Part shown: in pieces, positions 23,984 through 40,693 of the stretch
How positions within the stretch are numbered: position 1 is the stretch's first letter
Layout of the letters: the number at the start of each line of letters is the position of its first letter
NCBI RefSeq assembly: GCF_009720365.1
Contig: NZ_WBZD01000016.1
Location: 248,001-312,000 of the forward strand
Length of the DNA: 64,000 nucleotides
Source of the DNA: Catellatospora paridis
GTDB taxonomy: Bacteria > Actinomycetota > Actinomycetes > Mycobacteriales > Micromonosporaceae
Direction of reading: 5' to 3'
Notes under the pieces: generated by a model
Database searches by the model: none
What the model was told of the DNA's origin: nothing
What the model saw: the letters and a program-made list of their open reading frames with translations, nothing else
Program-made: the position numbers and the translations under genes

Positions 23984-25146
23984 TGCCGCGTCGTTGTGAT
24001 GCCTGCGCGGGCGCCGACCTCGTCCCGTTCGCCGACCTGGGCGAGGTGCCGATCCTGTGCGGCGTGCACTGGGCCGACCGGGACGACGCGGTCGGCTCCC
24101 CGTCAGGCCGCATGCACCTGGGCTACTGCCCGTCCTGCGGTTACGTCCGGAACCTGGCCTACGACCCGGCACGGCTCGTGTACGACCCGACGATGGACAC
24201 GAACCTGCACTTCTCGGCGGCCTTCGCCAGATACTCGAGCGGGCTCGTGCACGACCTGGTGGAGCGGTATCAGCTCGCAGGCAAGCAGGTGCTGGACATC
24301 GGCTGTGGGCAGGGCGAGTTCCTGCGGGAACTGTGCGGTCACGCGCCCTGCCGCGGGACCGGCTACGACGCCATGTACGCCGGACCGGAGGGAGCGGACC
24401 CGAGCGGCGCGACGCTGCACAGCGCGCTCGCCCCGCGCGGTGCCGGGCTGCCCGCCTTCGACTTCGTCACCTCCCGCCACTGGTTCGAGCACCTCGACGA
24501 CCCGTACGAGTTCCTGGCGGACCTGCGCGCACAGGCCGGCGACCGGACGGTGCACGGCTATCTCGAGGTGCCCGACGCGGGCTACGACCTGTCCACCGCC
24601 GGCTGGGAGGTCATCTACCCGCACGTCTCCTACTTCGACGGCTACGCCCTGTGCCGCATCGCGCGCCGGGCGGGGTGGCATGTGGCGGCCGGTGGCACCT
24701 ATTTCGACGGCATGTTCCGGTATCTCGAGATCACCACCGATCCGGCCAGGAGCCTGCCCGATCCGGAGCTGCCCACCGACCCGAGCGCGCACCTCGCCGC
24801 GGTCCTGGCCTTCGGCGACCGGCATCGCGTCGAACGTGCCCGCTGGCAGGAGAGCCTCGCGAAGTACGCGGCCGACGGCAGACGCCCGATCTTGTGGGGC
24901 GCGGGCTCGCGCGCTGTACAGTTCCTCACCGGTGTGGACATGGACCACAACCTCGCTGCCGTCGTCGACGTCAACCCGCGCAAATGGGGCCGATACCTGC
25001 CGGTCAGCGGCCATCGGGTCGACGCGCCTACCACGTTGGGTACGCTGCGGCCGGAAATCGTGATCATCACGAATCCCGCCTACCGTGCCGAGATCCAGGC
25101 CGCGCTCATGGACCTCGGGGTCGACGCAGAACTCGATGTGGCCTGA
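23983..25146 (+). CDS. SAM-dependent C-methyltransferase-like protein
   Basis: A 387-residue protein built like sugar C-methyltransferases: an N-terminal zinc-type cluster (CDACAGADLV and YCPSCGYVRN), a class I SAM-binding core beginning VLDIGCGQGEFLREL near residue 102, and a C-terminal Rossmann-like domain (ILWGAGSRAVQFL near 306, VIITNPAYR near 365). Such enzymes methylate NDP-keto-sugars. ATG 23983 overlaps the epimerase stop (TGATG); a GTG one codon earlier is possible. Translational coupling with both neighbours is likely. The exact methyl acceptor is unknown. Confidence 0.85.
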   Translation: MPRRCDACAGADLVPFADLGEVPILCGVHWADRDDAVGSPSGRMHLGYCPSCGYVRNLAYDPARLVYDPTMDTNLHFSAAFARYSSGLVHDLVERYQLAGKQVLDIGCGQGEFLRELCGHAPCRGTGYDAMYAGPEGADPSGATLHSALAPRGAGLPAFDFVTSRHWFEHLDDPYEFLADLRAQAGDRTVHGYLEVPDAGYDLSTAGWEVIYPHVSYFDGYALCRIARRAGWHVAAGGTYFDGMFRYLEITTDPARSLPDPELPTDPSAHLAAVLAFGDRHRVERARWQESLAKYAADGRRPILWGAGSRAVQFLTGVDMDHNLAAVVDVNPRKWGRYLPVSGHRVDAPTTLGTLRPEIVIITNPAYRAEIQAALMDLGVDAELDVA

Positions 25147-25173
25147 TGAACCGTGACAAAGAGAGGTGGCCGC

Positions 25174-25248
25174 ATGAGCAAGCGGGACAACCGAGCCGTG
25201 CGGCAGCGCGGCCCGCTGGGCCACGAGCAGAGCGAAGCGCGGGCATGA
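25174..25248 (+). CDS. Possible 24-residue leader peptide coupled to the second methyltransferase
   Basis: A short frame starting MSKRDNRAVRQRGPLG and ending EARA. GAGAGG lies 7 nt before its ATG at 25174, and its TGA overlaps the ATG of the next gene (ATGA at 25245-25248). The downstream ATG has no ribosome site of its own, so this peptide may serve mainly to deliver ribosomes. The peptide is basic and resembles no family I know. It could be chance; an alternative is that the methyltransferase starts at ATG 25146. Confidence 0.4.
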   Translation: MSKRDNRAVRQRGPLGHEQSEARA

Positions 25249-26471
25249 GCCCGGTGCCGTGTCGGCTGTGCGCCGCGCCCCTCAACACGACCTTTCTCGA
25301 CCTGGGCATGTCGCCGCTGTGCGAGAACTTCCTGCGCGCCGACCAGCTCGACGCGGGTGAGACGTTCTACCCGCTGCACGTACGCGTCTGTGACGAGTGC
25401 CTGCTGGTGCAGCTGCCGGCGTATGTGGGCGGCGAGGACATCTTCAGCGATTACGCCTACTTCTCCTCGTACTCGCAGTCCTGGGTCGAGCACGCGCGGG
25501 TTTACGCCGGCCGCATGATCGCTGAGCTGGGACTGGGCGCCGACAGCCTGGTCACCGAGGTCGCCAGCAACGACGGCTACCTGCTACGGCATTTCGTGGA
25601 CGCCGGCGTTCCCGTGCTCGGCGTGGAGCCTGCCGCCAACGTGGGCGCCGTCGCACGCGCCGCCGGGGTCCGGACCGAGACGCGGTTCCTCGGCCTGGAG
25701 ACCGGGACGGCGCTGGCCGAGCGGTACGGCCGCGCAGATCTCGTGGTCGCCAACAACGTGTACGCCCACATCCCCGATCTGATCGGGTTCACCGCCGGGC
25801 TGGCCGCCCTGGTCAAGCCCACCGGGCTGGTCACCCTCGAGTTCCAGCACTTGATGCGGATGATCGAGCGCAACCAGTACGACACCATCTACCACGAGCA
25901 CTACCACTACCTGACGCTGCGCACCGCCCAGCGCGCGCTCGCCACTGCCGGCCTGGTCGTGGTCCACGTCGAGGAACTGGCCAGCCACGGCGGTTCGCTG
26001 CGGGTGTTCGCGCGGCCGAGCGGGGTGCCCAGCGCCGCCGTCAAAGAGGTGCTGAACACGGAGGCCGCCGCTGGGCTGCACACCGCGGCCGGGCACCGCG
26101 GCTTCGCGGAATCGGTGTTCCAGGTCAAGCGGGAACTCGTGGACTTCCTGCACCAGGCGCGGGCCGAGGGCAAGCGGGTGGTGGGTTACGGCGCCCCGGG
26201 CAAGGGCAACACCCTGCTCAATCACTGCGCCATCCGCACCGACCTGCTCGAATACACCACGGACCGCAACCCGCACAAGCACGGCAGGTTCCTGCCCGGC
26301 ACGCACATCCCGATCCATCACCCGGACCGCATCGCCGCCGACCGGCCCGATTACGTGCTGGTGCTGCCCTGGAACCTGCGTAAGGAGATCAGCGCTCAGC
26401 TCGCCTATGTGGGCGACTGGGGTGGCCGGCTGGTCTTCCCGATTCCCCGGTTGGAGGTCGTGACGCCGTGA
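25245..26471 (+). CDS. Sugar C-methyltransferase (TylCIII/EvaC-like)
   Basis: A 408-residue enzyme with the three-domain layout of deoxysugar C-3 methyltransferases: zinc-binding N-terminus (CRLCAAPLN and CDECLLVQL), SAM-binding core (LVTEVASNDGYLL near residue 104; YDTIYHEHYHYLTL near 213, a conserved family segment with catalytic His/Tyr) and C-terminal domain (VVGYGAPGKGNTLLNH near 310). It adds a methyl group to an NDP-4-keto sugar. ATG 25245 is chosen because it overlaps the short upstream frame; an in-frame ATG at 25146 directly after the previous stop is the alternative. It overlaps the next gene by 4 nt. Confidence 0.9.
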   Translation: MSPVPCRLCAAPLNTTFLDLGMSPLCENFLRADQLDAGETFYPLHVRVCDECLLVQLPAYVGGEDIFSDYAYFSSYSQSWVEHARVYAGRMIAELGLGADSLVTEVASNDGYLLRHFVDAGVPVLGVEPAANVGAVARAAGVRTETRFLGLETGTALAERYGRADLVVANNVYAHIPDLIGFTAGLAALVKPTGLVTLEFQHLMRMIERNQYDTIYHEHYHYLTLRTAQRALATAGLVVVHVEELASHGGSLRVFARPSGVPSAAVKEVLNTEAAAGLHTAAGHRGFAESVFQVKRELVDFLHQARAEGKRVVGYGAPGKGNTLLNHCAIRTDLLEYTTDRNPHKHGRFLPGTHIPIHHPDRIAADRPDYVLVLPWNLRKEISAQLAYVGDWGGRLVFPIPRLEVVTP

Positions 26472-27277
26472 AGGTGGTCCTGTTCTGCGGCGGCTTCGGG
26501 TTGCGGATGCGCGAGGGACAGGGCAGCGCGCCCAAGCCGATGTCGATGATCGGCGACCGGCCGCTGCTGTGGCACGTCATGCGCTACTACGCCCACTTCG
26601 GCCACAACGACTTCATCCTGTGTCTGGGCTACGGCGCCAACGCGGTGAAGGACTACTTCCTGCGGTACGACGAGACGCTCAGCAACGACTTCACCCTGGC
26701 CAACGGCGGCCGGGAACTGCGCATGCATTCGACGGACATCTCCGAATGGAAGATCACGTTCATCGACACCGGCCTGACTGCCACCATCGGCGAACGGCTC
26801 ATGCGTGTGAAGGAGCAGCTCACCGGCGAGACGATGTTCCTCGCCAACTACGCCGACACGCTCACCAACGCCCCGCTGCCGGCCATGATCACACGGTTCG
26901 AGCAGAGCGACGCCATCGCGAGCGTGCTCGCCGTGCCGCCGGACTCCACCCACCACGTCATGGACATCCGTGCCGACGGCTCCGTGACCGGTGTGCGGGA
27001 GTTGCGCGAAGGCCAGTGGGAGAACGGGGGATACTTCGTCATGCGGCAGGGCGTGTTCGACACGCTGCGCGCCGGTGAGGACCTGGTCCCGCAGGCGTTC
27101 AACCGGCTCACCCAGCGCCGTGCCCTGCTCGCGCAGCGGTACGAAGGCTTCTGGCGGGCCGCCGACACGTTCAAGGACCGAGCCGAGCTCGAGGACATGT
27201 TCCAGCGCGGCAACTGCCCGTGGATGCTCTGGGATCCGCTGCGCAGCGGGCAGACCGACGTGCGGGGCCTGACCTGA
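26468..27277 (+). CDS. Glucose-1-phosphate cytidylyltransferase-like nucleotidyltransferase
   Basis: A 269-residue nucleotidyltransferase closest to RfbF, which makes CDP-glucose from CTP and glucose-1-phosphate. The N-terminus FCGGFGLRMRE is the nucleotide-binding loop, PKPMSMIGDRPLLWHVM gives the lysine and the IGxxPxLWH signature specific to the cytidylyl branch, and LEDMFQRGNCPWMLW near the C-terminus matches its ending. GTG 26468 overlaps the preceding stop (GTGA). A CDP-glucose 4,6-dehydratase, the usual next enzyme, is absent here; the upstream epimerase may fill that step. Confidence 0.87.
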   Translation: MKVVLFCGGFGLRMREGQGSAPKPMSMIGDRPLLWHVMRYYAHFGHNDFILCLGYGANAVKDYFLRYDETLSNDFTLANGGRELRMHSTDISEWKITFIDTGLTATIGERLMRVKEQLTGETMFLANYADTLTNAPLPAMITRFEQSDAIASVLAVPPDSTHHVMDIRADGSVTGVRELREGQWENGGYFVMRQGVFDTLRAGEDLVPQAFNRLTQRRALLAQRYEGFWRAADTFKDRAELEDMFQRGNCPWMLWDPLRSGQTDVRGLT

Positions 27278-27912
27278 TGCTGCGGCTGCCAGAGGTGCGA
27301 CAGGTGGTGCTCCTGGGCGCGCACCCTGACGACATCGAGATCGGCGCAGGCGGGTTCCTGCTCACGCTGGCCGCCGCCAATCCCGCAGTGCGCGTGCACT
27401 ACGTGCTGTGCACGGGCACTCCGTCGCGGCACGCGGAGGCGGCGGCCGCGGCGGCTGCGTTCCTGCCCGGCGTCACCCGCACCGCGGCCCTGCACACGCT
27501 GCCGGACGGGCGGCTGCCGGGCCACTGGGACGAGGTGAAGGCAATCCTCGACGACGCCGCGGGCTACCGGCCCGACCTGGTGCTGGCGCCCTGGGCCGGC
27601 GACGCGCACCAGGACCACCGGCTGCTCGGCGAGCTGGCGCCCACCGCGTTCCGGTCCGCGCTGCACTTGCAGTACGAGATCCCGAAGTGGGACGGGGACC
27701 TTGGCCGGCCGAACGTCTACGTGCCGCTGACCGGCGAGATCGCCGCCGCGAAGGTCGCGCACCTCGACGCCTGCTACGCCTCACAGCGCGACCGAGACTG
27801 GTGGACCGAGGAGACGTTCCGCGGCCTCATGCGACTGCGGGGCATCGAGTGCCGGGCGCCGTACGCCGAGGCGTTCCACTGCTCGAAGGTGACGCTCCAA
27901 CTCACCCCGTGA
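27277..27912 (+). CDS. PIG-L family deacetylase, first of two
   Basis: A 211-residue LmbE/PIG-L protein, zinc-dependent N-deacetylases acting on GlcNAc-containing molecules. LLGAHPDDIEIGAGG supplies the His and Asp-Asp zinc motif, and GDAHQDHRLLG near residue 108 supplies the second His. ATG 27277 overlaps the previous stop by one base (TGATG), closing the five-gene cassette. It converges on the aminotransferase gene 27 nt away without a visible terminator. It may remove an acetyl group from the sugar made by the cassette. Confidence 0.87.
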   Translation: MLRLPEVRQVVLLGAHPDDIEIGAGGFLLTLAAANPAVRVHYVLCTGTPSRHAEAAAAAAAFLPGVTRTAALHTLPDGRLPGHWDEVKAILDDAAGYRPDLVLAPWAGDAHQDHRLLGELAPTAFRSALHLQYEIPKWDGDLGRPNVYVPLTGEIAAAKVAHLDACYASQRDRDWWTEETFRGLMRLRGIECRAPYAEAFHCSKVTLQLTP

Positions 27913-27938: not shown

Positions 27939-29252
27939 TCAGTTGTACGGGCGGAACACCGGGCGCACGGCCCGCCCGGTCAGATGGTGCTCCCATCCGT
28001 CGGCGAGCGCCTTCGCGTAGGTGTCCAGCGCCAGGTCCACGGCCTCGACGGTACGGTCGATGTGCGCCTCGGTGTGCGAGTAGGACACGACGAACGACGG
28101 GGCGATGATCCCCTGCCGGATCAGCTGATCCATGAACAGGGTGCGGAACTCCTGGGACCGGTTGCCCTCCGCGTCCCGCGTCACGTGGACCAGGTTGGCG
28201 GGGTGTCCGGCCACGTCGACGTAGGCAGACAGCCCCCGCGCCGCCACGACCGCGCGCACCCCGTCTGCGAGCCGCTCCCCCAGCTGGCGCAACCGCTCGA
28301 TCACCGGTTCCGCCCGGTACACCGACATCGTCGCCATCGCCGCCGCCAGGGCGTGAGTCTCCGCACCGTACGTCGATGACAGCAGGAACACCCGCTCACG
28401 GGTGGTGCGTAGACCGCCGAGCTCCATCACGTCGGCCCGGCCCGTCAACGCGGCCACGGAGAACCCGTTGCCCATGCCCTTGGCGAAGGTGGCCAGGTCG
28501 GGCACGAGCCCGTGCACGTACGCGGCACCGCGTTCGTGCATCCGGAAACCGTTGATGATCTCGTCGACGATCAGCAGCGCACCGTGCTCGTCACAGAGCC
28601 GACGGACCCGGTCCAGGTATCCGGGCCGGGGCGGATCCTGGTAGGAGGCCTCCAGCACCAGCGCGGCGATCCGGCCCGGATGCTCGGCGAACAGCGCCGC
28701 CACGCTCTCCGCGTCGTTGAACGGGAACCGGGCGGTGAGCGCCCGCGTGGTCTCGGTGACACCGGCCGGCATCGCGGTGACGCCGATGAACCAGTCGTCG
28801 GTGGAGAAGAACGGTTGCCCGGCGCAGACGGCCACCATGTCGCGCCCGGTGTACGCCCGCGCCAGCTTCACCGCCGCGGTGGTCGCATCCGAGCCGTTCT
28901 TGGTGAACTTCACCATCCATTCCCGGTCGGGCGCGACGACGTCGAGGAACTGCTCCGCGCACGCCACCTCGATCGCGGCCGGCCGGGTGAAGTTCACGCC
29001 GAGCTCGAGCTGGGCCCGCACCGCCGCGAGCACCGGCTCGAAGGCATGGCCCAGCGTGACGGCGCGCAGCCCCATGCCGTACTCGATGAACTCGTTGCCG
29101 TCCACGTCCCAGACCGTGCATCCACTGCCCCGTGCGATGAAACCGGGTGCGTCCACCGGATACTGGTCGTCGCCCTTGGCGTAGGTGTGCGCGCCCCCGG
29201 GAATCAGGTCGTGGGCGCGGGCACCCAGCCTCCGCGACTCGTGCAGTCTCAT
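27939..29252 (-). CDS. Class III aminotransferase (glutamate-1-semialdehyde mutase-like)
   Basis: A 437-residue PLP enzyme of aminotransferase class III. NEFIEYGMGLRAVTLGHA, the loop KFTKNGSDATTAAVKLAR (residues about 114-131), LIVDEIINGFR (PLP aspartate) and FAKGMGNGFSVAAL (Schiff-base lysine) are all present. It resembles HemL-type enzymes but a hemL role is unlikely in this setting. It is probably the last gene of the carrier-protein operon, 60 nt after the NAD-synthase paralog, and may install an amino group on a small acid. The start ATG 29252 has only a weak GTGAGG upstream. Confidence 0.88.
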   Translation of the reverse strand: MRLHESRRLGARAHDLIPGGAHTYAKGDDQYPVDAPGFIARGSGCTVWDVDGNEFIEYGMGLRAVTLGHAFEPVLAAVRAQLELGVNFTRPAAIEVACAEQFLDVVAPDREWMVKFTKNGSDATTAAVKLARAYTGRDMVAVCAGQPFFSTDDWFIGVTAMPAGVTETTRALTARFPFNDAESVAALFAEHPGRIAALVLEASYQDPPRPGYLDRVRRLCDEHGALLIVDEIINGFRMHERGAAYVHGLVPDLATFAKGMGNGFSVAALTGRADVMELGGLRTTRERVFLLSSTYGAETHALAAAMATMSVYRAEPVIERLRQLGERLADGVRAVVAARGLSAYVDVAGHPANLVHVTRDAEGNRSQEFRTLFMDQLIRQGIIAPSFVVSYSHTEAHIDRTVEAVDLALDTYAKALADGWEHHLTGRAVRPVFRPYN

Positions 29253-29311
29253 GCCTCACCCTGTCCTGTCAGGTGGGAAGTTCGCGGAGGTCGGGTGCCC
29301 GTCATCCGATC

Positions 29312-30307
29312 TCAGTGCTCGATCTCCGACACGTCCGCGGCCAGCCGCGGCGTCAGGTGTAGGTAGTTCGACGTGCGCCGCTTCTGCTCGATGTCCCGGT
29401 ACACCCGGAGCACCTGCTCGGCGGTCAGGTCGGTCGTCGCGGCCACCTCGTCGATGGAGATCCCGTTGTTGAGCCCGTACAGGCACAGGTCCATCCGCTG
29501 GTACGGCAGGGAGAAGTAGAACTCCTCCTGCGACTGCGGCAGCGAGTAGGTGTCCGTGGTGGACGGCCGGGCGGAGATGTCGGCCGGCACGCCGAGGTGG
29601 TCGGCGAGCTGGTAGACCTGCGACTTGTACAGGTGCGCGATCGGCTTGACGTCGGCCGAGCCGTCACCGAGCTTCACGAAGAAGCCCTGGTCGTACTCGA
29701 GCCGGTTCGGGGTGCCCGACACCGCGTAGTTCAGCCGGTCCGCGTGGTAGTACTCCATCATCTTGCGGACCCGCTGCTTGAAGTTCGTCGCGGCGACGAT
29801 GCCGAGGTACGCCTCCGTGGTGAGGCGGTGCCTGGTCTGCGTTCCGTCGGGCGCCTGCACCACCACCGAGTAGAGCCGGAAGCTGTCGGAGTCGATCACG
29901 CTGGGCAGCACGATCTTCGACTTGTACCCCGGGCCGTACTCGGGGCAGACCAGCCGGATCGCGTCGTCGCGCCGCCGGTAGCAGCCGGCCGCGTCGAGCA
30001 GCGGGGTGATGTCCTCGTGCACCGACTCGATGCCGAGGCTGTCGGCCACCAGGCGGCTGAGGCCCAGCGTGTCGTCCGAGGAGTCGCGCTCGGGCATGTG
30101 CAGGCCGAACACGCGCTCCTTGCCGATGGCGGCGACGCAGGCGGCCGCGACCACGCTGGAGTCGATGCCACCGGACAGGGCGACGATGATGCCGCGGCGC
30201 TTGGTGCTCGCCAGATACTGGGTCAGCGTTGCCGAGATCCTGGCCATCTCCTGATCGGCGTCGATCCGCAGGCTGGCCGGCCCGAACGCCGTGGCCGAGC
30301 TGGTCAT
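29312..30307 (-). CDS. NAD synthase paralog (ammonia-dependent NadE-like)
   Basis: A 331-residue N-type ATP pyrophosphatase close to NadE. SGGIDSSVVAAACVAAIG is the PP-loop (residues about 45-62), and KQRVRKMMEYYHADRLNYAV, GTPNRLEYDQGFFVKLGDG and PIAHLYKSQVYQLADHLGVP are NadE signature stretches. It is longer than ordinary ammonia-dependent NadE (about 275) owing to an extra segment near 108-165. Its gene overlaps asnB by 4 nt and belongs to a polysaccharide operon, so it may act in the pathway as an adenylating amide synthetase and not in bulk NAD synthesis. That is inference. Confidence 0.85.
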   Translation of the reverse strand: MTSSATAFGPASLRIDADQEMARISATLTQYLASTKRRGIIVALSGGIDSSVVAAACVAAIGKERVFGLHMPERDSSDDTLGLSRLVADSLGIESVHEDITPLLDAAGCYRRRDDAIRLVCPEYGPGYKSKIVLPSVIDSDSFRLYSVVVQAPDGTQTRHRLTTEAYLGIVAATNFKQRVRKMMEYYHADRLNYAVSGTPNRLEYDQGFFVKLGDGSADVKPIAHLYKSQVYQLADHLGVPADISARPSTTDTYSLPQSQEEFYFSLPYQRMDLCLYGLNNGISIDEVAATTDLTAEQVLRVYRDIEQKRRTSNYLHLTPRLAADVSEIEH

Positions 30308-32325
30308 GCGTTGCCTCCATGGTGGTTGTCGTAGGCGCTGTCAATGCGGGTCATATCCACTGCCACCTGCAGTTCAGGCAGCGCCGAGGCCGCGGCCCCG
30401 CCGTCGCCTGAGATGAACTGCTGGTGGGTGAGTTGAGTCGAGATCACGGCCATGAGCCGCATGCTGTCGGTGTTGCTCATCTGCTCGCCGCCGGTCCGGC
30501 GGCACTTGGCGACCAGCCCGGCGACCTGCTCGGGCTGGAACACACCCGCGTCGGTCACCGCACGCGCGGAGGTGACCTCGTCGAACCAGTCGGGGGTGCC
30601 GGCGGCGAAGAAGCTCGCTGCGTCCGGCGCCCGGTAGGGCTGCTTCGGGCGGCGGCGGATCTCCTCGGGCACCAGGTCGGCGAAGGCCCGCTTGAGCAGG
30701 TGCTTCTCGTCCAGCCCGAAGAGCTTGTACCGGGCCGGGAGCGTGGCGGCGAACTCCAGCACGTCGGCGTCCAGGAACGGGAACCGGCCCTCGACCGAGT
30801 TCGCCATGAGCATGCGGTCGCCCTGAGACGCGAGGATGTAGCCGGACAGCAGCGTGGTCATCTCCAGCCACTGCGCGCGGCCCAGCGGGTCCCAGCGCTC
30901 GCTGCCGTCGGGCAGCGCGCCTGCCAGCCCTGCCGGGTCGGCCGGGTCCGTGCCGCCGATCGCGGCCTGCAGCTGCGGCGACAGCATCCGCTTGAGCACG
31001 GCGGTCGCGTCCCAGCGGGGCCGGTGCGACAGCGCCGGGTCGGTGGCATCGAGGTTGCGGCCGAAGAAGCTGCGCGCGAACGCGGGCGCCTGCCCGGGCG
31101 AGCGCACCATCCACGGGTACAGCAGCTCGGCGGCGCGGTGCCGCTTGGCCGAACCGGGGTCGGCGGCCCAGAAGCGCCGCACCCGGGCCTCCCGGAAGAT
31201 GTCGTAGCCGGCGAACACCTCGTCGGCGCCCTCGCCGGTGACGACGACCTTGTACCCGCTCTCGCGGACCAGCTTCGACAGCAGGTAGAGCGGCGCCGGG
31301 GCGGCGCGCAGCAACGGGGTCTCGGCGTGCCGCACCACCTCAGGGAACACGTCGGCGATGTCACGCGGGCCCACCACGATGTCGTGGTGCTGCGTGCCCA
31401 GCGCCGCGGACATGATCTTCTGGTAGCCGCCCTCGTCGAACTCGTCGCTGGAGAACCGTAGCGAGAACGTGTGCAGCGGGGCCCGGGTGTACCGGGCGAC
31501 GACCGCCGTCGTGATCGAGGAGTCGAGGCCGCCCGACAGGTAGGCGCCCACCGGCACGTCACTGCGCAGGAAACGCAGCCGCGCGGCCTCGACGAGCTTG
31601 TCGCGCAGCGCCTCGGTGGTCTCGCGCAGGTCGGGCAGCGGCTGCTGCCGGTCCGGGAACTCGATGCGCCAGTACGGCACGGTGCGGAACCCGGATTCGT
31701 CGTATACCGCGTAGTGCCCGGGTGGCAGCTGCTCGATGCCCTGGAACACGGTGCGCGGGGCGACGGTGGACCAGTAGGTCAGCGTCTCGTCGAGGCCTGC
31801 CGGATCGAACGCCCGCGGCAGGCGCGGATCGGCGAACAGCGCCTTCACCTCGGAGGCGAACAGCAGGCCCGACGGGGTGCGGGCGTAGTAGAGCGGCCGG
31901 ACGCCGACCCGGTCCCGGGACAGCACCAGCCGCCGCGCCCGCCGGTCCCAGAGGGCCACCGCCCACTGCCCGTTGAACCGGCGGAAGCAGTCCTCGCCCC
32001 ACTCCTCCCACGCGTGCACGATCACTTCGGTGTCGCTCGACGTTCGGAAGGTGTGGCCCAGCCCGCGCAGCTCCTCGGCGAGCTCGACGTAGTTGAAGAT
32101 CTCGCCGTTGAAGGACACCCACCGGCTGCCGTCGGCGTTGCTCATCGGCTGTGCCCCGCCGGCCGTGTCCACGATGGCGAGCCGGGTGTGCCCCAGCGCC
32201 ACGCGGTCGTCGCGGAAGAATCCGCAGCCGTCCGGCCCGCGGTGCACCAGCCGCCGCATCATGTCCAGCAGCAGCTCGCGGTCAGGGGTCTGCTCGAAGG
32301 AGGCGACACCGCACATCCCACACAT
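30304..32325 (-). CDS. asnB: Asparagine synthase-type amidotransferase (glutamine-hydrolysing)
   Basis: A 673-residue AsnB-family enzyme. The N-terminal Ntn glutaminase begins MCGMCGVASF, with Cys2 as nucleophile, and keeps HRGPDGCG and SFNGEIFNY. The synthetase domain has the PP-loop SGGLDSSITTAVVARYT near residue 263 and TGEGADEVFAGYD near 363. It is about 30-60 residues longer than standard AsnB, with a C-terminal extension. Family members of this length in surface-polysaccharide clusters amidate carboxylates other than aspartate, so the true acceptor is uncertain. ATG 32325 gives the required Met-Cys start. Confidence 0.88.
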   Translation of the reverse strand: MCGMCGVASFEQTPDRELLLDMMRRLVHRGPDGCGFFRDDRVALGHTRLAIVDTAGGAQPMSNADGSRWVSFNGEIFNYVELAEELRGLGHTFRTSSDTEVIVHAWEEWGEDCFRRFNGQWAVALWDRRARRLVLSRDRVGVRPLYYARTPSGLLFASEVKALFADPRLPRAFDPAGLDETLTYWSTVAPRTVFQGIEQLPPGHYAVYDESGFRTVPYWRIEFPDRQQPLPDLRETTEALRDKLVEAARLRFLRSDVPVGAYLSGGLDSSITTAVVARYTRAPLHTFSLRFSSDEFDEGGYQKIMSAALGTQHHDIVVGPRDIADVFPEVVRHAETPLLRAAPAPLYLLSKLVRESGYKVVVTGEGADEVFAGYDIFREARVRRFWAADPGSAKRHRAAELLYPWMVRSPGQAPAFARSFFGRNLDATDPALSHRPRWDATAVLKRMLSPQLQAAIGGTDPADPAGLAGALPDGSERWDPLGRAQWLEMTTLLSGYILASQGDRMLMANSVEGRFPFLDADVLEFAATLPARYKLFGLDEKHLLKRAFADLVPEEIRRRPKQPYRAPDAASFFAAGTPDWFDEVTSARAVTDAGVFQPEQVAGLVAKCRRTGGEQMSNTDSMRLMAVISTQLTHQQFISGDGGAAASALPELQVAVDMTRIDSAYDNHHGGNA

Positions 32326-32329
32326 GGGC

Positions 32330-33001
32330 TCACGCTCCGCTCAGGGCGCGGCCGAGGACCCGCACCATGGCGTCGGGGTCGCTCAGCACGGCCAGGTCGA
32401 TGTCGTCGTCGGTCAGCGTCACGTCGAAGGAGTCCTCGAACAGGATCGCCAGCCGCAGCGCCGCGAGTTCGGGGTCGGCGTCCGCCTCCCCCATGCCCGA
32501 CCACTCGGTCAGGACCTGTTCGACCTGTCCGCGATCCACCACGGCACCACCTGTCGCTTCGAGTGGGCGCGCGGGGGCGCCCGACTGGCTGGCTTCGGTC
32601 CGCGCCGGCTGCGGCGTGGGCCGTCGTGCGGACGAGGTCACCAGGGCCACGGCCGTGGCGTACTCGTCGCAATGTGACATCGAGATGCTGATCTCGACGA
32701 CACCGGCCTGTTCGGCTTCGGCCAGCACGGCGCCGGACAGCTGGACGCCCGGCGCTCCGTGCCCGCCGTTCACGATCTCGACCATCCGCCACGGCACCGG
32801 GCCGGACCACGCGAACGGCAGCGCCTTGAGCACCGCCTCCTTCGCGGCCAGCCGTGCCGCGACGTGCCGGCTCGGCACCGCTTTGCTCACGCAGTACGCG
32901 ACCTCGCCCGGCGTGAACCAGCGCTGCAGGAACGCCGCTCCGCTGCGGTCCATGAGGGCCGCGACCCGCACGACCGAGACGATGTCGGTACCGACGTTCA
33001 C
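32330..33001 (-). CDS. Holo-ACP synthase fused to an ACP-like domain lacking the serine
   Basis: A 223-residue two-domain protein. Residues 1-125 are an AcpS-type phosphopantetheinyl transferase: GTDIVSV (metal Asp), AAKEAVLKAL (53-60) and SISMSHCDEYATAVAL are all typical. After a Pro/Ala/Ser linker (about 126-153), residues about 155-223 resemble the C-terminal two thirds of an acyl carrier protein (AALRLAILFEDSFDVTLTDDDI), but the DSL attachment site reads PEL at 177-179, so no serine can carry the cofactor. It probably primes the carrier protein encoded at 35451-35714. Separated from asnB by 4 nt. Confidence 0.8.
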   Translation of the reverse strand: MNVGTDIVSVVRVAALMDRSGAAFLQRWFTPGEVAYCVSKAVPSRHVAARLAAKEAVLKALPFAWSGPVPWRMVEIVNGGHGAPGVQLSGAVLAEAEQAGVVEISISMSHCDEYATAVALVTSSARRPTPQPARTEASQSGAPARPLEATGGAVVDRGQVEQVLTEWSGMGEADADPELAALRLAILFEDSFDVTLTDDDIDLAVLSDPDAMVRVLGRALSGA

Positions 33002-33009
33002 AGCCGCGG

Positions 33010-33939
33010 TTACTTCGACGACGCCTGCGCGACGGCGGCGAGCCAGGCGACCGCCGCCCGCTGCGCGCCCTCGCCGTTGAGGTGGCCCTCGTCCGCGGCG
33101 AACGCGTCCGCGAGCACGAAGTAGGGCTGCCCGTCGTAGGTGCCGCCGGCCCGGTCACCGTCCGGCGCCGCGGACTCCACCGCGGCCACGTCGAACAGGT
33201 GCGCGTCGCCGTACTCCTTGCGGATCAGCTGGTTAAGCCGCTCCCGGGTCACATTCGAGGCCGGGCCGAACAGGTCGCCGTGGGCTGTGCCCGTGACCCA
33301 CTGCTTGAGCCGCGTCAAGCGGCCGTACTGCGTGGTCAGCGGCACCGTGGCCTTGACGAAGGTGACGTTCGGGAAGTCGCGCTCCAGTGCCGCGATCGTG
33401 TCGCGGTAGGCCGCGAAGAGCGCGTCGACGTCGGTACCCGGCGCGATGTCGACGTAGCAGAGTTTCATCATCGCGACGTCGACCTGGGCCCCGATACCGC
33501 CGCGGATGAGCGCGTCGAAGTCCTTGATCTTGTCAAGCGGCTTGGTGTTCTCGCCGATGGGCGCGTGCGCCACGAAGCCTCCCGAGGCGGTCGGCGCGTC
33601 CCGGCGCTCCTCGATCGGCGGGGCCGACAGGCTGTGCGCGCCGTAGACCGCGCCGACGCCGTTGAGCACGTTGCCCCCGACCGACTGGTGCCCGAAGAAC
33701 ACCCTGGTCCGGCTGACCTTGGCCAGGTCTTCCGCTGACACCTGCGCGGTGGCGACGCCACCGACCACTTCGTCCGTGGTCACGGCCTTGTCCTTTCCGT
33801 CGAAGATGAGCCATGCCGAGCCGGCGACGACCACCAGTGCCGCCGCCGCGGCGACCAGCCGCCCGGGCTTGCGCCAGGCACCGCCCGATCGCCCGGCCTC
33901 GGGCACGGCGGTCTCGATATCGGTCTTCGTCATCGTCAC
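33010..33939 (-). CDS. Membrane-anchored SGNH/GDSL-like protein
   Basis: A 309-residue protein with a cytoplasmic N-terminus, one membrane helix (about 28-46) and an extracytoplasmic domain resembling SGNH hydrolases or acyltransferases: VFFGHQSVGGNVLNG near residue 80 has the candidate catalytic Ser, and DEGHLNGEGAQ near residue 285 has the D-x-x-H pair. Family assignment is from motif shape and not secure. In the operon, between an AMP ligase and the carrier-protein synthase, it could transfer or remove an acyl group on the exported polymer, similar in position and topology to DltD. Confidence 0.65.
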   Translation of the reverse strand: MTMTKTDIETAVPEAGRSGGAWRKPGRLVAAAAALVVVAGSAWLIFDGKDKAVTTDEVVGGVATAQVSAEDLAKVSRTRVFFGHQSVGGNVLNGVGAVYGAHSLSAPPIEERRDAPTASGGFVAHAPIGENTKPLDKIKDFDALIRGGIGAQVDVAMMKLCYVDIAPGTDVDALFAAYRDTIAALERDFPNVTFVKATVPLTTQYGRLTRLKQWVTGTAHGDLFGPASNVTRERLNQLIRKEYGDAHLFDVAAVESAAPDGDRAGGTYDGQPYFVLADAFAADEGHLNGEGAQRAAVAWLAAVAQASSK

Positions 33940-33958
33940 TCCTCGTTCGTCGGGCGGG

Positions 33959-35473
33959 TCACGTCGTCGGGGCGCCTTCGGCTGCCGCCGCGACCAGGCG
34001 CGCCTTGGCCACCTTGCCGTTGCTCGTCAGCGGCAGGGCATCCACCACGAACACGTTGGCCGGCACCATGTGCTTGGCGAGGTGCTCCCGGCAGACCGCC
34101 AGCACCTCGTCCGCGGTGACCTCAGCGCCGGGCCGGGCCACGACGAACAGGGTGACCGCCTCACCCGCCGCCAGGTCGGGCATACCGACGGCCGCGGCCG
34201 AGGTGAGCCGGTCGATGCGCAGCGCGCAGTCCTCGACCTCCTGGCTGGAGATGCGGTATCCCCACGACTTGATGAAGTCGTCGCGGCGATCGAGGACGAA
34301 GATGTCGCCGTCACCGTCCACGGTGGCGAGGTCGCCGGTACGCAACCCTGACGGGGTGAACTTGGCCGCCGACTCCTCCGGCGCACCGAGGTATCCCGGA
34401 GAGATGTTCTCTCCCCGGGCGTAGATCTCACCCTGCTCACCGGGGCGCACTGACCGGCCGGTGTCGTCGAGCACTCGCAGCTCGACACCCGGGATGCCCC
34501 GGCCGATCGAGGCCGGCTTGCTGCGCAGCAGCGCCGGCGGCAGGTAGGACAGGCGCGCGGTCGCCTCGGTCTGCCCGTACATGAGAAACAGGTCCGCGGT
34601 GCTCTTCGCCTCCAGCAGCTCGTCCACGAGCACTGGGGCCAGTTTCCCGCCCGCCTGCTGGATCACCCGGAGCGAGGGCAGTTCCCGGTCGCGGAAGCTC
34701 GCCGCCCGCAGCAGCAGCTGGAACGTCGACGGCACGCCGGCCAGCACCGTGCACTCCTCGCGTTCCAGCAGATCCAGCGCGGTCTCCGGGAAGGCGAACG
34801 AGTGCAGCAGCACGATCCGGCCACCGACGCGCAGGTGCGTGTGCAGCAGCGAGGCGCCGTAGCAGTAGTAGAAGGGCAGCACCGCCAGCACCCGATCCTC
34901 GGCACGCAGGCCGAGGTAGTCGACGATGGAGTCGGTGTTGGCGAGGATGTTGCGATGGGTGACCCGCACCGCCTTGGGCCGCGACGTCGTGCCGGACGTG
35001 AACATCAGGGCGGCGTCGGCGTCGAGGTCGCAGGGGCGCGGAGCGGGTGGCTCCACCGCCTCTGTCGAGGCGAGCCGCTCCTCGGTGATCACCGCGACGC
35101 CCTCCAGCACCGCACCGAACCGGCGCAGCGCGCGGCGGTCCACGAATGCGGCTGCCACCTCGACCAGCGCCAGGTTGCGGCGGGCCTCCTCCGGCGTGAC
35201 CTTGTCCGCCACCGGCACCGCGACGCAACCCGCCTTCATGGCGGCGAGGTAACCCGCGATCCAGAAGAACGAGTTGGGCCCCAGGACGGCGACCCGGGAG
35301 CCGACCGGCAGCTCCAGCGCGGCCAGGGCGCCGACCAGGCGGGCCACCGCCGCGCGCAGGTCGCGGTAGGTGTGCCGGTGGGCGCCGTCCACGACTGCGA
35401 TGTCGTCGGGGCGTCCCTGGCCGAGCAGGTGGTCGCCGGCGGTCAGGCGCTCATCGCGCCAGGCCACTGCCAA
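33959..35473 (-). CDS. AMP-dependent acyl or aminoacyl ligase
   Basis: A 504-residue ANL-superfamily adenylating enzyme. ALMFTSGTTSRPKAVRVTH (about 156-174) is the P-loop motif, YGQTEATARLS near 297 is motif A5, TGDLATVDGDGDIFVLDRRDDFIKSWGYRIS near the C-terminal hinge holds A7 and A8, and NGKVAKARL near the end holds the catalytic A10 lysine. It activates a carboxylic or amino acid as adenylate and probably loads the carrier protein encoded immediately upstream. The start overlaps the carrier-protein stop by 23 nt. The pocket residues give no confident substrate. Confidence 0.9.
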   Translation of the reverse strand: MAVAWRDERLTAGDHLLGQGRPDDIAVVDGAHRHTYRDLRAAVARLVGALAALELPVGSRVAVLGPNSFFWIAGYLAAMKAGCVAVPVADKVTPEEARRNLALVEVAAAFVDRRALRRFGAVLEGVAVITEERLASTEAVEPPAPRPCDLDADAALMFTSGTTSRPKAVRVTHRNILANTDSIVDYLGLRAEDRVLAVLPFYYCYGASLLHTHLRVGGRIVLLHSFAFPETALDLLEREECTVLAGVPSTFQLLLRAASFRDRELPSLRVIQQAGGKLAPVLVDELLEAKSTADLFLMYGQTEATARLSYLPPALLRSKPASIGRGIPGVELRVLDDTGRSVRPGEQGEIYARGENISPGYLGAPEESAAKFTPSGLRTGDLATVDGDGDIFVLDRRDDFIKSWGYRISSQEVEDCALRIDRLTSAAAVGMPDLAAGEAVTLFVVARPGAEVTADEVLAVCREHLAKHMVPANVFVVDALPLTSNGKVAKARLVAAAAEGAPTT

Positions 35474-35714
35474 CCTGCTTGCCCTCGACGTACTTCGTCA
35501 GGTTGGCGATCGAACCCAGGTTGTCCGGGACGGTCTCGACCTCCAGCACCTCGATGCCGAACGACTCCTCGAGGAACTCGACGAGCTCCAGCACGCCGGT
35601 CGAATCGATGATGCCCTGGTCCACGAGCGACTCATGGTCGCTCGGCAGCCGAGCCGAGTCGCCGAACAGGTAGTTGTTGACCACGAAGTCAACGAGCTTC
35701 TCGCGGATCTGCAT
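35451..35714 (-). CDS. Acyl or peptidyl carrier protein
   Basis: An 87-residue carrier protein. The phosphopantetheine serine is in IIDSTGVLELVEFLEESFGI (Ser near residue 46), followed by the usual third and fourth helices. ATG 35714 (MQIREKL) follows GGTGGGGA; the frame extends 11 residues upstream without support. It is the first gene of the seven-gene minus-strand operon and overlaps the AMP ligase start, so the two are likely made in step. Comparable in size to DltC and to stand-alone carrier proteins. Confidence 0.88.
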   Translation of the reverse strand: MQIREKLVDFVVNNYLFGDSARLPSDHESLVDQGIIDSTGVLELVEFLEESFGIEVLEVETVPDNLGSIANLTKYVEGKQVGSGLAR

Positions 35715-35975: not shown

Positions 35976-37589
35976 TCAGCGGCGGCCGCGGACGATCCGC
36001 GCCACCCGCGTCGACACCTCGCGGTCGGTGACCGCCAGCATCGCCGCCGCGACGACGGCCGCGACGACACCGGTGACGATCAGGCTGACGGTGGTGTTCG
36101 TGCCGTGCAGCAGCGCCTGGCTCGCCGAGCCCGCGGCACCGGCTCCGACCGCCGCGGCCACAGCCGGGAGCGACGGCCGCAGACCGGCCATCAACGACCG
36201 GACCATGACCCGGGAGAACATCAGCGCGAGTGCGATGAGGGCGGCGGTCCACTGAAGGATCGCGAACGTCGTGGCGATGGCCAGGACCTGCGTGCCGGGA
36301 GAGCTGTCGTTGAACAACGCTCCGGCCGCCAGCATGAGCCCGACCGAAGCCGCGGCCGAACCCCAGTTGATCGCCGCGAGCGTGTCGGGGCGGCCCGCCG
36401 CCTGGAAGATCGCGCCCATCAGCGGACCCAGCGCCACGGCCGCCATGGCCACGCACAGCACCCGGAAAGCCGGCCCAGCCGGCGTCCACTGCGGACCGAC
36501 CCAGGTCAGGAACAGCGGACCGGCCGCGAACAGGATGCCCAGCACCGGGAACGCGATCAGCGTGCCGGTGTGCAGGTATCGAGCCGCGTAGCGGTCGAAC
36601 TCGTCGCGCGAGGCCGCGGCACGCGACAGGTGGGGCATCGCGACCTGGGCGAGCCCACCGGTGGCGACATCGTTCACCATCTCGGCGATGCGCGTGATGA
36701 ACCGGTAGAGGCCGATCGCCGCCGGACCGAACATCGGGCCCAGAATCAGCGCGTCGGTGCGCATCGCGACGAAATAGGCGAAGAAGCCCGACAGCGAATG
36801 CAGCGAATATTGCCGCAGCTCCCGCAGCGCGGGGCCGATACGACGGAACCGCGGCCGCCACTGCACCCCGATCCACACCGCCGTGGCCGAGATGGTGGTC
36901 ATCACGAGTTGCTGCGCCACGAGGGCCCAGACGCCCCATCCCAGCACCGCGCCAGCGACGCCGACGCCACCACTGACCAGCCCAGCCAGCAGCCAGCGCA
37001 TGGACAGCGACCGGAACTTCAGCTCGCGCCGCAGGATCGCGTCGGGCACGACGAGCACCGCGTTGAGCACCATGGCCGGGGCCAGCGCCAGACAGATCGG
37101 GATCAGGTCCGCCGTCTGGTTTACCGCCGCCCACAGCGGCACCGCGATCACGAAGACGGCCGCCAGGGCCGTACCCGTGCCGACGGTGACCCAGAACGCG
37201 GCGTCGTAGTGGCTGTCGTCGACCTCCTCGCGCTGCGTGATCGCCTGCACCAGGCCGTGTATGGAGAGCGACTGCGCGAAGGTCACCCAGACCAGTGCGA
37301 GCGCCACCAGGCCGTAGTCGGCCGGCGAGAGGAACTTCGCCATGACGATGGTGACGCCGGCGGTGGTGCCGAAACGACCGATCGTCAAGACGTACGACCA
37401 CAGCACGGCCGCGCGCGGCAACCGGCCGTCCGGCGTCGCCGGCGCAGGTTCCTCCTGCAGCACCGGCGCCGGCGACTCCGTGGTCGCGTCAGCCATGTCG
37501 TCGGTCACACGCTCCTGGCGCACCGGCCCCGGCTGTGCGACGGCGGCAAGGCTCGGCGCAGCGGCTTCCATGCGGTCCGCACTCATCAT
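35976..37589 (-). CDS. Polysaccharide flippase (Wzx/MOP superfamily)
   Basis: A 537-residue integral membrane protein with about 12-14 hydrophobic segments after a 70-residue Pro/Ala/Glu-rich cytoplasmic N-terminus. FLSPADYGLVALALVWVTFAQSL near residue 90 is the polysaccharide-synthesis flippase signature, as in Wzx, RfbX and MurJ-like transporters. It should move lipid-linked repeat units across the membrane for the Wzy polymerase encoded at 45577. ATG 37589 overlaps the stop of the upstream glycosyltransferase (ATGATGA), so the longer frame is rejected. The 261-nt gap that follows holds the carrier operon promoter region. Confidence 0.88.
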   Translation of the reverse strand: MMSADRMEAAAPSLAAVAQPGPVRQERVTDDMADATTESPAPVLQEEPAPATPDGRLPRAAVLWSYVLTIGRFGTTAGVTIVMAKFLSPADYGLVALALVWVTFAQSLSIHGLVQAITQREEVDDSHYDAAFWVTVGTGTALAAVFVIAVPLWAAVNQTADLIPICLALAPAMVLNAVLVVPDAILRRELKFRSLSMRWLLAGLVSGGVGVAGAVLGWGVWALVAQQLVMTTISATAVWIGVQWRPRFRRIGPALRELRQYSLHSLSGFFAYFVAMRTDALILGPMFGPAAIGLYRFITRIAEMVNDVATGGLAQVAMPHLSRAAASRDEFDRYAARYLHTGTLIAFPVLGILFAAGPLFLTWVGPQWTPAGPAFRVLCVAMAAVALGPLMGAIFQAAGRPDTLAAINWGSAAASVGLMLAAGALFNDSSPGTQVLAIATTFAILQWTAALIALALMFSRVMVRSLMAGLRPSLPAVAAAVGAGAAGSASQALLHGTNTTVSLIVTGVVAAVVAAAMLAVTDREVSTRVARIVRGRR

Positions 37590-38515
37590 GTGTCCTTCGA
37601 GGTCATCGCGTCCCTTGCCCACCCCCGGCGTCGGCGCAGCGCGCCAAGCCGGATGCGTGCCTCGGTTGCCGGCCACACCATACCGAACGCGGCGATCGCC
37701 CCCGCCTTACCGCGTAGCGGTAGTTCGCTGACGGCCAGGGAGCGGATGGTCTCGCGGTAGAAGCGCAGCTGTTCGTTGTTGCCGGTGAACCTGAGCCGCC
37801 GCCGCGTCGCCAGCTCGGGCTCCAGCCAGGCATACCGGTCGCGGGCGTTGGTGGCTCCGCCGAAATCGTTGCCGTCGCGGGAGCCGCGCCGGTAGAAGAG
37901 ATACTCCGGGACGAGCTCGATCTGGCCCCGCGCGACGAGTTCGAGGATCAGCGTACGGTCTGCCGTCCCGAAGGCCAGATGCAGCCTGGTCCGGCGCAGC
38001 ACGTCCATGCGCACGAGGCCGAAGACCGCATTGCTGTATCGCAGCAGTCCCATGCCGCCCGCGATGCGCGCCGCCGGCGTCGCCTGCCGCACGGCCGGCT
38101 CGTCCGTGCAGGCGAAGAGTTGCTGCCCGGTGTGGTCTATGACGATGCTCTGGGGATAGGACGCGACCGCTGCCGGATTGTCGTCCAGGGCCTGCACGCA
38201 GCGGCGGAGCAGGGCCGGCGCCATCAGGTCGTCGTGCGAGGTCAGCCGGAAGAACTCCCCCCGGGCCAGGCTCACCACACGTGCGTAGTTGCCTGATTCA
38301 CCGAGGTTCGACTCGTTGCGGAAGACCCGCACCCGTGCGTCTCGGGCGGCGTACGCCTGCAGGATGTCCCACGTCGCGTCCGTCGACCGGTTGTCGCACG
38401 CGACCACCTCGAAGTCGGCGAATTCCTGGGCGAGCGCGGCATCGAGCGCGCCAGGCAGGTATCGCTCGTTGTTGTACGCGGTGATGCCGAGTGTCACCCT
38501 CGGTCGGTCAGACAT
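37586..38515 (-). CDS. Glycosyltransferase family 2
   Basis: A 309-residue GT-A transferase. VTLGITAYNNERYLPGALD at the N-terminus, CDNRSTDATWDIL near residue 50 and LTSHDDLMAP near 92 (the D-x-D-type metal site) define the family. The sugar donor and acceptor are unknown. ATG 38515 has GGGGAGA about 5 nt upstream and lies 8 nt inside the previous gene; the eight earlier residues of the frame are rejected. It overlaps the flippase gene, so the three genes 39737 to 35976 form one operon. Confidence 0.88.
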   Translation of the reverse strand: MSDRPRVTLGITAYNNERYLPGALDAALAQEFADFEVVACDNRSTDATWDILQAYAARDARVRVFRNESNLGESGNYARVVSLARGEFFRLTSHDDLMAPALLRRCVQALDDNPAAVASYPQSIVIDHTGQQLFACTDEPAVRQATPAARIAGGMGLLRYSNAVFGLVRMDVLRRTRLHLAFGTADRTLILELVARGQIELVPEYLFYRRGSRDGNDFGGATNARDRYAWLEPELATRRRLRFTGNNEQLRFYRETIRSLAVSELPLRGKAGAIAAFGMVWPATEARIRLGALRRRRGWARDAMTSKDT

Positions 38516-39737: not shown

Positions 39738-40015
39738 CAGGGCTCCAGCGCCGAATCGGCACGACGATCGTGCACGAGGCACTTTACTATGGCGGGCGCG
39801 CCGGAACTCGGCCGTAAAGTCTGCCTTTTCGGCTCGCAGCAGACGCCCGGTCGGCCGGTGGCCCAGCCCTCCGTGTGGCCGGGCGCCGCAGTGATCGCCT
39901 GGCGGACGCGCCCTCCATCTGCTAAGAACGAGCCTGGCAGGCCCACCGGGGGTGGGTGCGCCGTGCCGAGTTATTCGACTCGATCGATTGCATCATCTGG
40001 GGTCCGGGAGGCCGA

Positions 40016-40693
40016 GTGATCCGGCGGGTGTTGGTGAAGCTCTATGGGATTCGCCGCGCACGCGTGCGAAGCATGGTGCTGTGGCTCCTACGCCGAACGG
40101 ACGGCGACGAATTCACGTCGTCCGCTCTTCGGGAGATCTTCAAGAGATACTGGGGCGTGGAGATAGGCATGTACACCCACGGCGGCTGCTTCGCGCCATG
40201 GATGATCGATCGGGACACGACCATCGGCCGTTACTGCTCCATAGCCGCGGGCGTCCGCGTCGTCAATCACAACCACCCGCTGACGTTCAAGAGCACCAGC
40301 GGACTGTTCTTCAACCCGGCGCTCGGTCTGACCGACCGGTGGCTGGTCGAGCACCGGCCGCTGGAGATCGGTAGCGACGTCTGGATCGGCGCCAACGCGG
40401 TCATCCTGCCCGAGGTCAACCGGATCGGGCATGGTGCCGTCATCGGCGCCGGCGCCGTCGTGAACCGGGACGTGCCGCCGTACGCCGTGGTGCTCGGCAA
40501 CCCGGCGCGGGTGGTGAAGTACCGCTTCTCGGAGCAGACGATCGCGAAACTGCTCGCCGAGCGGTGGTGGGATCGCGACATCAACCAGCTGGGCGATCTG
40601 AGCGCCTTCCAGAATCCGATGACGGACGAGGCACCGGAGGCGCCTGTGCCGGCACCGGCCGCGACTTCCAGCCAGACTTCGACGGTGCGCTGA
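40016..40693 (+). CDS. Hexapeptide-repeat O-acyltransferase
   Basis: A 225-residue left-handed beta-helix acyltransferase. Hexapeptide repeats run from [19 protein letters not shown] to [33 protein letters not shown], and VVNHNHPLT holds the catalytic histidine region typical of sugar O-acetyltransferases (VatD/NodL/WbbJ type). GTG 40016 is preferred over the upstream GTG 39956 because GGGAGG lies 5 nt before it. It likely acetylates a sugar of the exported polymer using acetyl-CoA. A strong terminator follows at 40702-40739. Confidence 0.85.

Follow-up and report, generated by a model that had tools for sequence, protein, structure and literature searches.

What does an operon make in which a carrier protein and an acid-activating ligase are encoded together with AsnB- and NadE-like enzymes within a polysaccharide locus? 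The question is raised by positions 27939 to 35714 of a stretch of 64,000 nucleotides (nt) from Catellatospora paridis (assembly GCF_009720365.1, contig NZ_WBZD01000016.1, positions 248,001 to 312,000, forward strand), which is referred to here as the window and sits in a genome of 8.97 Mb. An initial annotation, made from the sequence alone, had proposed that seven genes of this region activate an acid, load it on the carrier and use it for the decoration of a polymer. Here we present a computational analysis of these genes and of related loci, which are designated by L numbers. We read the operon as a module that tailors a surface polysaccharide by way of a carrier protein, with a probability of about 0.47. 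Its core consists of the genes for an acyl carrier protein (ACP), a ligase, an AsnB-type enzyme and a NadE-like enzyme.

All seven open reading frames were present on the minus strand in the order and with the close spacing originally described. From position 35714 down to 27939 they encode an ACP or peptidyl carrier with a DSTG attachment site (35451..35714; reading frame, alignment and profile comparison with solved structures), an adenosine monophosphate (AMP)-forming acid:carrier ligase (33959..35473), an exported or membrane-anchored protein of the SGNH fold (33010..33939; invariant residues and predicted fold), an AcpS (approximately residues 1-125) followed by a degenerate, serine-less ACP-like domain at approximately 32333-32548 (32330..33001), an AsnB-type glutamine amidotransferase with intact motifs (30304..32325), a NadE-like adenosine triphosphate (ATP) pyrophosphatase of the PRK00876 subfamily (29312..30307) and a class III aminotransferase of the PRK06209 family (27939..29252). 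The junctions comprise two overlaps (23 and 4 nt) and gaps of 19, 8, 4 and 59 nt, the last junction being that of 59 nt, and the third-position guanine-plus-cytosine content is high in all seven frames. Scans for promoters and terminators found nothing. Pfam and NCBIfam scans back the ligase (PF00501), the AcpS (PF01648) and the aminotransferase (PF00202), and NCBIfam cut-offs were exceeded by AcpS (TIGR00516), AsnB (TIGR01536), the NadE-like protein (NF002048) and the aminotransferase (NF004856).

A species-genome collection was scanned with an alignment of the SGNH protein, which yielded ten loci. Ligase, AsnB and NadE genes were found near the SGNH gene in seven of them, ACP in six and AcpS in five; the loosest of the seven (L026) showed identities of 30-42%, with ACP and AcpS not seen, and in L023 the genes are split over both strands. 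ACP, ligase, SGNH, AcpS, AsnB and NadE-like genes occur all together in six other actinobacterial loci. Among 24 tabulated loci, 21 contain NadE (11 picked by NadE, two by the ligase and eight by SGNH; L033 and L035 are both from Sinorhizobium meliloti). These 21 loci hold AsnB and the ligase without exception (21/21 each) and ACP in 20/21, and the four genes lie close together in the window and in 20/24 tabulated loci. At E<=1e-70 the NadE subfamily (NF002048) was detected in 2/396 genomes of the phylum, namely that of the window and a second genome (G223), in which NadE, AsnB, ACP and ligase form one gene run with no SGNH gene. Relatives of NadE (E<=1e-30) were present in 116 of 72,556 plasmid records, including 76 from Sinorhizobium and 12 from Azospirillum. 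Twelve plasmid loci from rhizobia, Azospirillum and Roseateles were taken (ten via NadE, two via the ligase), two of which are from S. meliloti, and ACP, ligase, AsnB and NadE were together in all twelve. The linkage of these genes is not chance, and the core is ACP-ligase-AsnB-NadE. The proposal of a seven-gene set thus holds for six genes, whose orthologues are kept together in related genomes, and fails for the aminotransferase. The four-gene core was not found described as a system in the literature searched, in which few subscription journals were covered.

The aminotransferase was found whole only in L015, from a genome of the same genus. In the ten loci of the SGNH scan it was not found in nine within the DNA searched and is reduced to a stump of 33 residues in L018, from the same-genus Catellatospora sichuanensis H14505. 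The sequence 3' of NadE in L018 matches window positions 29336-29155, then 23170-23097 and then 22957-22696. Approximately 6 kb are thereby lacking, comprising the aminotransferase from codon 33 on, a deacetylase, a cytidylyltransferase, two methyltransferases and most of an epimerase; a further ~140 nt are missing, and the six genes before the deletion keep open frames. The scar of this loss lies at L018:14685-14860. As two gene stumps are left in L018, loss there is likelier than gain in the window, and the joint loss groups the aminotransferase with the neighbouring cytidine diphosphate (CDP)-sugar cassette rather than with the core. This cassette lies downstream on the plus strand and was identified by family scans: an NAD-dependent (nicotinamide adenine dinucleotide) sugar epimerase/dehydratase (22889..23983), a second C-methyltransferase-like gene (23980..25146), a C-methyltransferase with an approximate start (25149..26471; PF08421, PF13489, PF08484), a sugar-1-phosphate cytidylyltransferase-like gene (26468..27277; TIGR02623 at 191 bits, below the cut-off of 300, and no Pfam match) and a PIG-L family de-N-acetylase (27220..27912). 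The loss in L018, together with absence from the conserved set, rules out the aminotransferase as the acid maker of the core, and its earlier assignment to the system is given up.

The DSTG site of the ACP was found in 11/11 aligned carriers (a set without L032), and DST in 20/21 carriers including that of the window, with DSL in L032. No Pfam model matched the ACP, and four NCBIfam carrier models did so below their cut-offs. The family profile matches solved carrier proteins, the nearest of which are peptidyl carrier proteins (PigG and PltL among them), with DltC and fatty acid ACPs further down the list. For the ligase, the best NCBIfam model was TIGR03098 (exosortase-A ligase), at 309 bits against a cut-off of 592. 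At the position that aligns with the amino-acid-binding Asp of nonribosomal peptide synthetase adenylation domains, the window has Cys, L035 and L036 have Asp, and L037 and L038 have Gly. In L033 the match to the ligase is split over two frames, so that the gene may be broken there; in L035 (S. meliloti 1021) one match spans the ligase. A second, more distant ligase-like match was observed in the Mesorhizobium AR07 locus (L048:6415-7656).

The AcpS had been described as fused to a second ACP-like domain. The fusion itself was confirmed in Catellatospora (window, L014/L018 and L015), and in L019, L020 and L021 the counterpart is a separate small frame. These free-standing serine-less ACP-like proteins of 65-74 residues lie directly 3' of AcpS (L019:11235-11441, L020:11199-11393, L021:11236-11457), and those of L019 and L020 gave no NCBIfam match. 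Comparison of the AcpS tail with the ACP by hhalign gave a probability of 85 over 38 columns, and the predicted model shows a four-helix pattern; PDB matches of the tail were weak (best E 0.21), and a structure search with the whole protein had AcpS domains among the matches listed. We regard the tail as related to ACP with moderate confidence. The serine at the attachment position is absent in 5/5 aligned sequences, so that the tail lacks the usual means of carrying an acyl group, and a second working carrier on AcpS is rejected. Elsewhere in the genome there is a further AcpS-like match (36% identity), whose matched stretch contains one TGA. In the accessible part of PMC12391972 (all articles cited here are represented by such parts), basal Escherichia coli AcpS failed to prime SMb20651, a DST carrier of S. 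meliloti, and overexpressed AcpS primed it, which fits a dedicated AcpS in the present operon.

The surroundings in the window are those of a polysaccharide locus. Family scans placed a Wzx-type flippase directly upstream of the operon (35976..37676, minus strand), a Wzy/O-antigen-ligase-type polymerase at 45577..46974 (plus strand) and an initiating bacterial sugar transferase at 52170..53717 (minus strand), along with glycosyltransferases, a WecG-type sugar transferase and nucleotide-sugar genes. L019 and L021, both mycobacterial, likewise have the core amid polysaccharide genes. On two annotated Azospirillum plasmids (L046, L047) the core ends an exopolysaccharide locus, in which a flippase, a sugar transferase, an O-antigen-ligase-type protein, three glycosyltransferases and a polysaccharide deacetylase are followed by the core and a GNAT gene; relatives of this deacetylase precede the core in L038 and L039 too. 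In C. sichuanensis, PIG-L and hexapeptide genes stand side by side, adjoining Wzx. That an acid is activated, loaded on the carrier and used for polymer decoration is therefore probably correct, given that the genes are kept together and that the core ends the Azospirillum loci.

Two kinds of protein are candidates for the transferase that such a scheme lacks. The first is a hexapeptide (LbH) acyltransferase (39956..40693, plus strand; family scans, with orthologues in operons), a candidate cytoplasmic enzyme that is present in 8/8 loci in which SGNH occurs with ACP, ligase, AsnB and NadE (window, L015, L018, L019, L020, L021, L023 and L027). Close orthologues of the window protein were found only in L018, L019 and L021 (63-85%), and only in L019 and L021 (63-65% identity) does the gene lie inside the operon, between ACP and ligase. 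A VOC protein nearest methylmalonyl-CoA epimerase (CoA, coenzyme A) is also encoded between ACP and ligase there (L019:6409-6918, below cut-off; L021:6402-6899); it occurred only in these two loci among 18 sequences searched, which leaves a methylmalonyl-type acid as one possibility. The second candidate is a GNAT-like protein of approximately 350-370 residues, which accompanies the core in 11/13 loci without SGNH, the gene being adjacent to the core in ten and ~10 kb off in L033; neither L048 nor the 9 kb flanks of L035 showed such a gene. One family comprises L032, L033, L034, L036, L037, L040 and L049 (24-78% identity) and the other L038, L039, L046 and L047 (71-74% to L038); the two are weakly alike (best E 3.5e-4 over 137 residues). 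In the four Azospirillum loci the start of the GNAT-like gene overlaps the stop of NadE by 4 nt. The plasmid annotation names the proteins of L046 and L047 GNAT; two more members scanned differed in that L046 matches three GNAT Pfam models and L049 none, and in a PDB profile search no match to the GNAT-like proteins reached E<=0.01. A second GNAT-like copy was observed in the Ensifer locus (L034:14483-15550). Since GNAT-like proteins occur in 11/13 core loci without SGNH and loci with SGNH have a hexapeptide protein nearby, the missing transferase is probably not the SGNH protein.

From gene content and motifs we infer the following catalytic steps, acid, amidation target and acceptor. The ligase would adenylate a carboxylic acid, for which an amino acid or a small dicarboxylic acid is the likeliest candidate and a fatty acid is also possible. 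It would then transfer this acid to the DST-type carrier, itself primed by the dedicated AcpS. Carboxylates of the acid would become amides, either ahead of loading or afterwards, through AsnB (using glutamine) and the NadE-like enzyme (using ammonia). An acyltransferase in the cytoplasm would next attach the acyl group to a sugar unit, at an amino or hydroxyl group that a deacetylase may have freed; this enzyme is probably the hexapeptide protein at 39956-40693 here and the GNAT-like protein in other lineages. Wzx would export the acylated unit, and the SGNH protein may trim or rearrange acyl groups on the polymer outside. The aminotransferase would belong to the CDP-sugar cassette. In the Roseateles locus (L049:10032-13486) the core stands beside RidA, alanine racemase and D-amino acid dehydrogenase genes, neighbours that perhaps hint at an amino acid substrate.

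Several observations weigh against this tailoring module. The hexapeptide gene of the window lies 4.2 kb from ACP on the opposite strand, and since polysaccharide loci often encode hexapeptide proteins, their co-occurrence is support, not proof. Three GNAT Pfam models each match 3/8 GNAT-like members scanned, that is, some members only. A deacetylase was not found in L019, L020 and L021 (a subset of genes scanned, and tblastn with the window PIG-L and the Azospirillum deacetylase). The variable pocket residue of the ligase means that the acid is not predictable from this enzyme. The NadE-like protein retains its SGGIDSS loop and might simply make NAD, and NF002048 was also over its cut-off in Methanosarcina acetivorans, alone among 14 control genomes. 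In three of the ten SGNH loci (L022, L024, L025) neither the core genes nor AcpS were found, L024 comprising only 4.5 kb. For the S. meliloti ligase SMb20650, which cannot replace FadD, long-chain fatty acids were not efficiently linked to CoA (PMC7232532, in part); this concerns CoA linkage, so fatty acids on the ACP stay in play. Finally, the rhizobial cores have no adjacent polysaccharide genes in the annotated stretches (annotation incomplete), and a polymer acceptor would therefore not be general.

These rhizobial cores, which carry a GNAT-like gene, are also what speaks for the unlikely alternative that the module makes a released small compound, either soluble or lipid-linked, to which the polysaccharide context is incidental. 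The carrier, which resembles those of small natural-product pathways, points the same way. Such a product would leave unexplained why polysaccharide genes surround the core in Catellatospora, in the mycobacterial L019 and L021, and in Azospirillum.

The AsnB-type enzyme bears on a further, improbable explanation. Its Cys2 and the SGG-x-DS ATP loop are invariant in 11/11 sequences, and AsnB of this type (E<=1e-200) was found in the same 3/11 genomes of the genus as SGNH. The second-best NCBIfam model is TIGR03108, the family with WbpS and WbqG, which is tied to uronamide formation (PMC7468200, in part). AsnB could accordingly be WbpS-like and amidate a hexuronic acid of the polymer, while ACP and ligase make an unrelated acyl group and merely share the locus. 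However, AsnB reaches 422 bits with TIGR03108 against a cut-off of 817, it accompanies ACP, ligase and NadE also in rhizobial loci without adjacent polysaccharide genes, and a scan of window genes, which was not exhaustive, brought out no conspicuous gene for a uronic acid pathway. A term look-up in the accessible part of PMC9850573 returned nothing on AsnB enzymes.

The SGNH protein was initially taken for the enzyme that accepts the acid from the carrier. It gave no Pfam, NCBIfam or PDB sequence match; Ser86, Asp283 and His286 are invariant in 11/11 sequences, and in the predicted model the fold, the Ser and the Asp-x-x-His fit the SGNH hydrolase superfamily. The AlphaFold model (predicted local distance difference test score 81) matches SGNH hydrolases in a structure search, the best matches including platelet-activating factor acetylhydrolase-like proteins and sialate O-acetylesterase, with the periplasmic domain of a Salmonella lipopolysaccharide acetyltransferase at rank 23; these matches to a predicted structure would fit either an esterase or a transferase. 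The protein starts with a membrane helix by eye (model helix 27-46) and some relatives have lipoprotein-like signals, so that it most likely acts outside the cell. This location, and the GNAT-like proteins in core loci without SGNH, tell against the role initially given to it. SGNH was detected in 3/61 near-relative genomes, including that of the window, and in 3/396 genomes of the phylum, counting the window and one weak match; no relatives were found on plasmids at E<=1e-5. Relatives apart from the core were observed as a second copy at L023:4049-4846 and as the only copy at L024:260-1150, L025:9929-10762 and L022:10001-10816, and three of these four begin with lipoprotein-like signals by eye.

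With ligase, carrier and a membrane-anchored SGNH protein in one operon and DltC among the solved carrier relatives, a Dlt-like process had to be considered, in which an amino acid loaded by the ligase would be passed from the carrier to the polymer outside the cell by SGNH, in the manner of DltD. We hold it to be very unlikely: PF03062 (MBOAT, the DltB family) gave 0 matches in the genome and was positive in 3/14 control genomes, which agrees with the MBOAT gene reported as absent from the outset; none of the 50 structure matches listed for the SGNH model is titled DltD; and 13/21 NadE-bearing loci are without SGNH (these had been selected through NadE or the ligase, and the remaining eight through SGNH). 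The pocket residue of the ligase is not diagnostic for D-alanine. A Dlt-type system is rejected for lack of an MBOAT match.

The NadE-like protein scored 506 bits with NF002048 (PRK00876), above the curated cut-off of 313, and its SGGIDSS loop is invariant in 12/12 sequences. The conserved ATP loops of NadE and AsnB and the NF002048 title, NAD(+) synthase, would suit an ordinary second NAD synthetase and an ordinary asparagine synthetase for supply, with only ACP and ligase mattering, but this is highly improbable in view of a further, distant NadE-like match in another part of the genome and of a NadE subfamily confined to 2/396 phylum genomes, both times beside AsnB, ACP and ligase.

The core common to actinobacteria, rhizobia and Azospirillum points to one shared chemistry. 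We put forward, as a doubtful proposal for a glycan-tailoring system not named before and common to several phyla, that two distinct amide synthases of the ATP-pyrophosphatase kind (AsnB-type and NadE-type), the ligase and a dedicated peptidyl-type carrier might build an amidated acyl group, that GNAT-like or hexapeptide transferases, depending on the lineage, might place it on amino sugars, and that the serine-less, AcpS-tied ACP mimic of actinobacteria might help in the choice or hand-over of the carrier. Under this proposal the NadE-like enzyme would be an amide synthase specific for the acid or for the carrier, not an NAD synthetase, and a NAD synthetase paralogue could thus have gained a function outside NAD metabolism.

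Two further features of the window were noted. A protein of 501 residues (47152-48657, minus strand) had no Pfam, NCBIfam or PDB match; a relative (51%) is encoded directly beside SGNH in L024, with a rhamnosyltransferase-like gene next, and L023 encodes another (56% over 110 residues) within its SGNH locus. A tRNA-Arg (ccg) gene lies at 19364-19438 (plus strand), a few kb before the polysaccharide genes.

The operon was compared with known systems. DltABCD likewise has a ligase, a carrier and an SGNH protein; here MBOAT is absent and AsnB and NadE are extra. The parallel once drawn between the trio and DltA, DltC and DltD is a loose analogy. Exosortase A/PEP-CTERM exopolysaccharide loci share the nearest NCBIfam models: for the window and S. 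meliloti alike, TIGR03098 is the best model of the ligase, and TIGR03108 comes next after the generic model of AsnB. Both proteins stay under the TIGR03098 and TIGR03108 cut-offs, in the window and S. meliloti alike, and exosortase PF09721 had 0 matches in the genome (positive in 1/14 control genomes); the absent exosortase and the sub-cut-off scores rule it out. To our knowledge the exosortase A system has no NadE-like gene. OxyD of the oxytetracycline pathway is presumably of the AsnB type.

It makes a malonamate starter (PMC6164072), and for glutarimide starters an AsnB-type enzyme that amidates an ACP-bound acid was proposed (PMC4853412), the amidotransferase of the amidotransferase-ACP-acyltransferase (AMT-ACP-AT) loading modules being paired with an ACP as here. 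These systems differ in that they make polyketide starters, have no NadE and use an acyltransferase in place of the ligase. In the Wbp/Vim linking-sugar pathway (VimE deacetylase, VimA transferase), deacetylation and aminoacylation of a surface sugar were proposed and amidation of a surface sugar by the AsnB-type WbpS was shown by deletion; it differs from the present operon in that ACP, ligase and NadE are not mentioned for it in the accessible part of the source (PMC7468200).

The closest comparison is with S. meliloti, where SMb20650 (ligase) and SMb20651 (ACP) likewise form an adjacent pair with a DST-type carrier on pSymB. The locus L035 of S. meliloti 1021, on pSymB, also has AsnB and the same NadE subfamily; judged by the agreement of replicon, gene pair and DST motif, it is most probably the SMb20650/SMb20651 locus and thus a partly studied relative. 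It differs from the window in having no adjacent SGNH, AcpS or polysaccharide genes, and in S. meliloti a GNAT-like gene lies ~10 kb off (L033). SMb20651 was reportedly described as an orphan carrier in 2009. SMb20650 led to acylated holo-SMb20651 in E. coli (PMC7232532), and the function of the pair is termed unknown or in need of study in the accessible parts of PMC12391972 and PMC5686131. The position of the core at the end of exopolysaccharide loci in Azospirillum, together with the likely acyltransferases, gives this orphan carrier a testable role.

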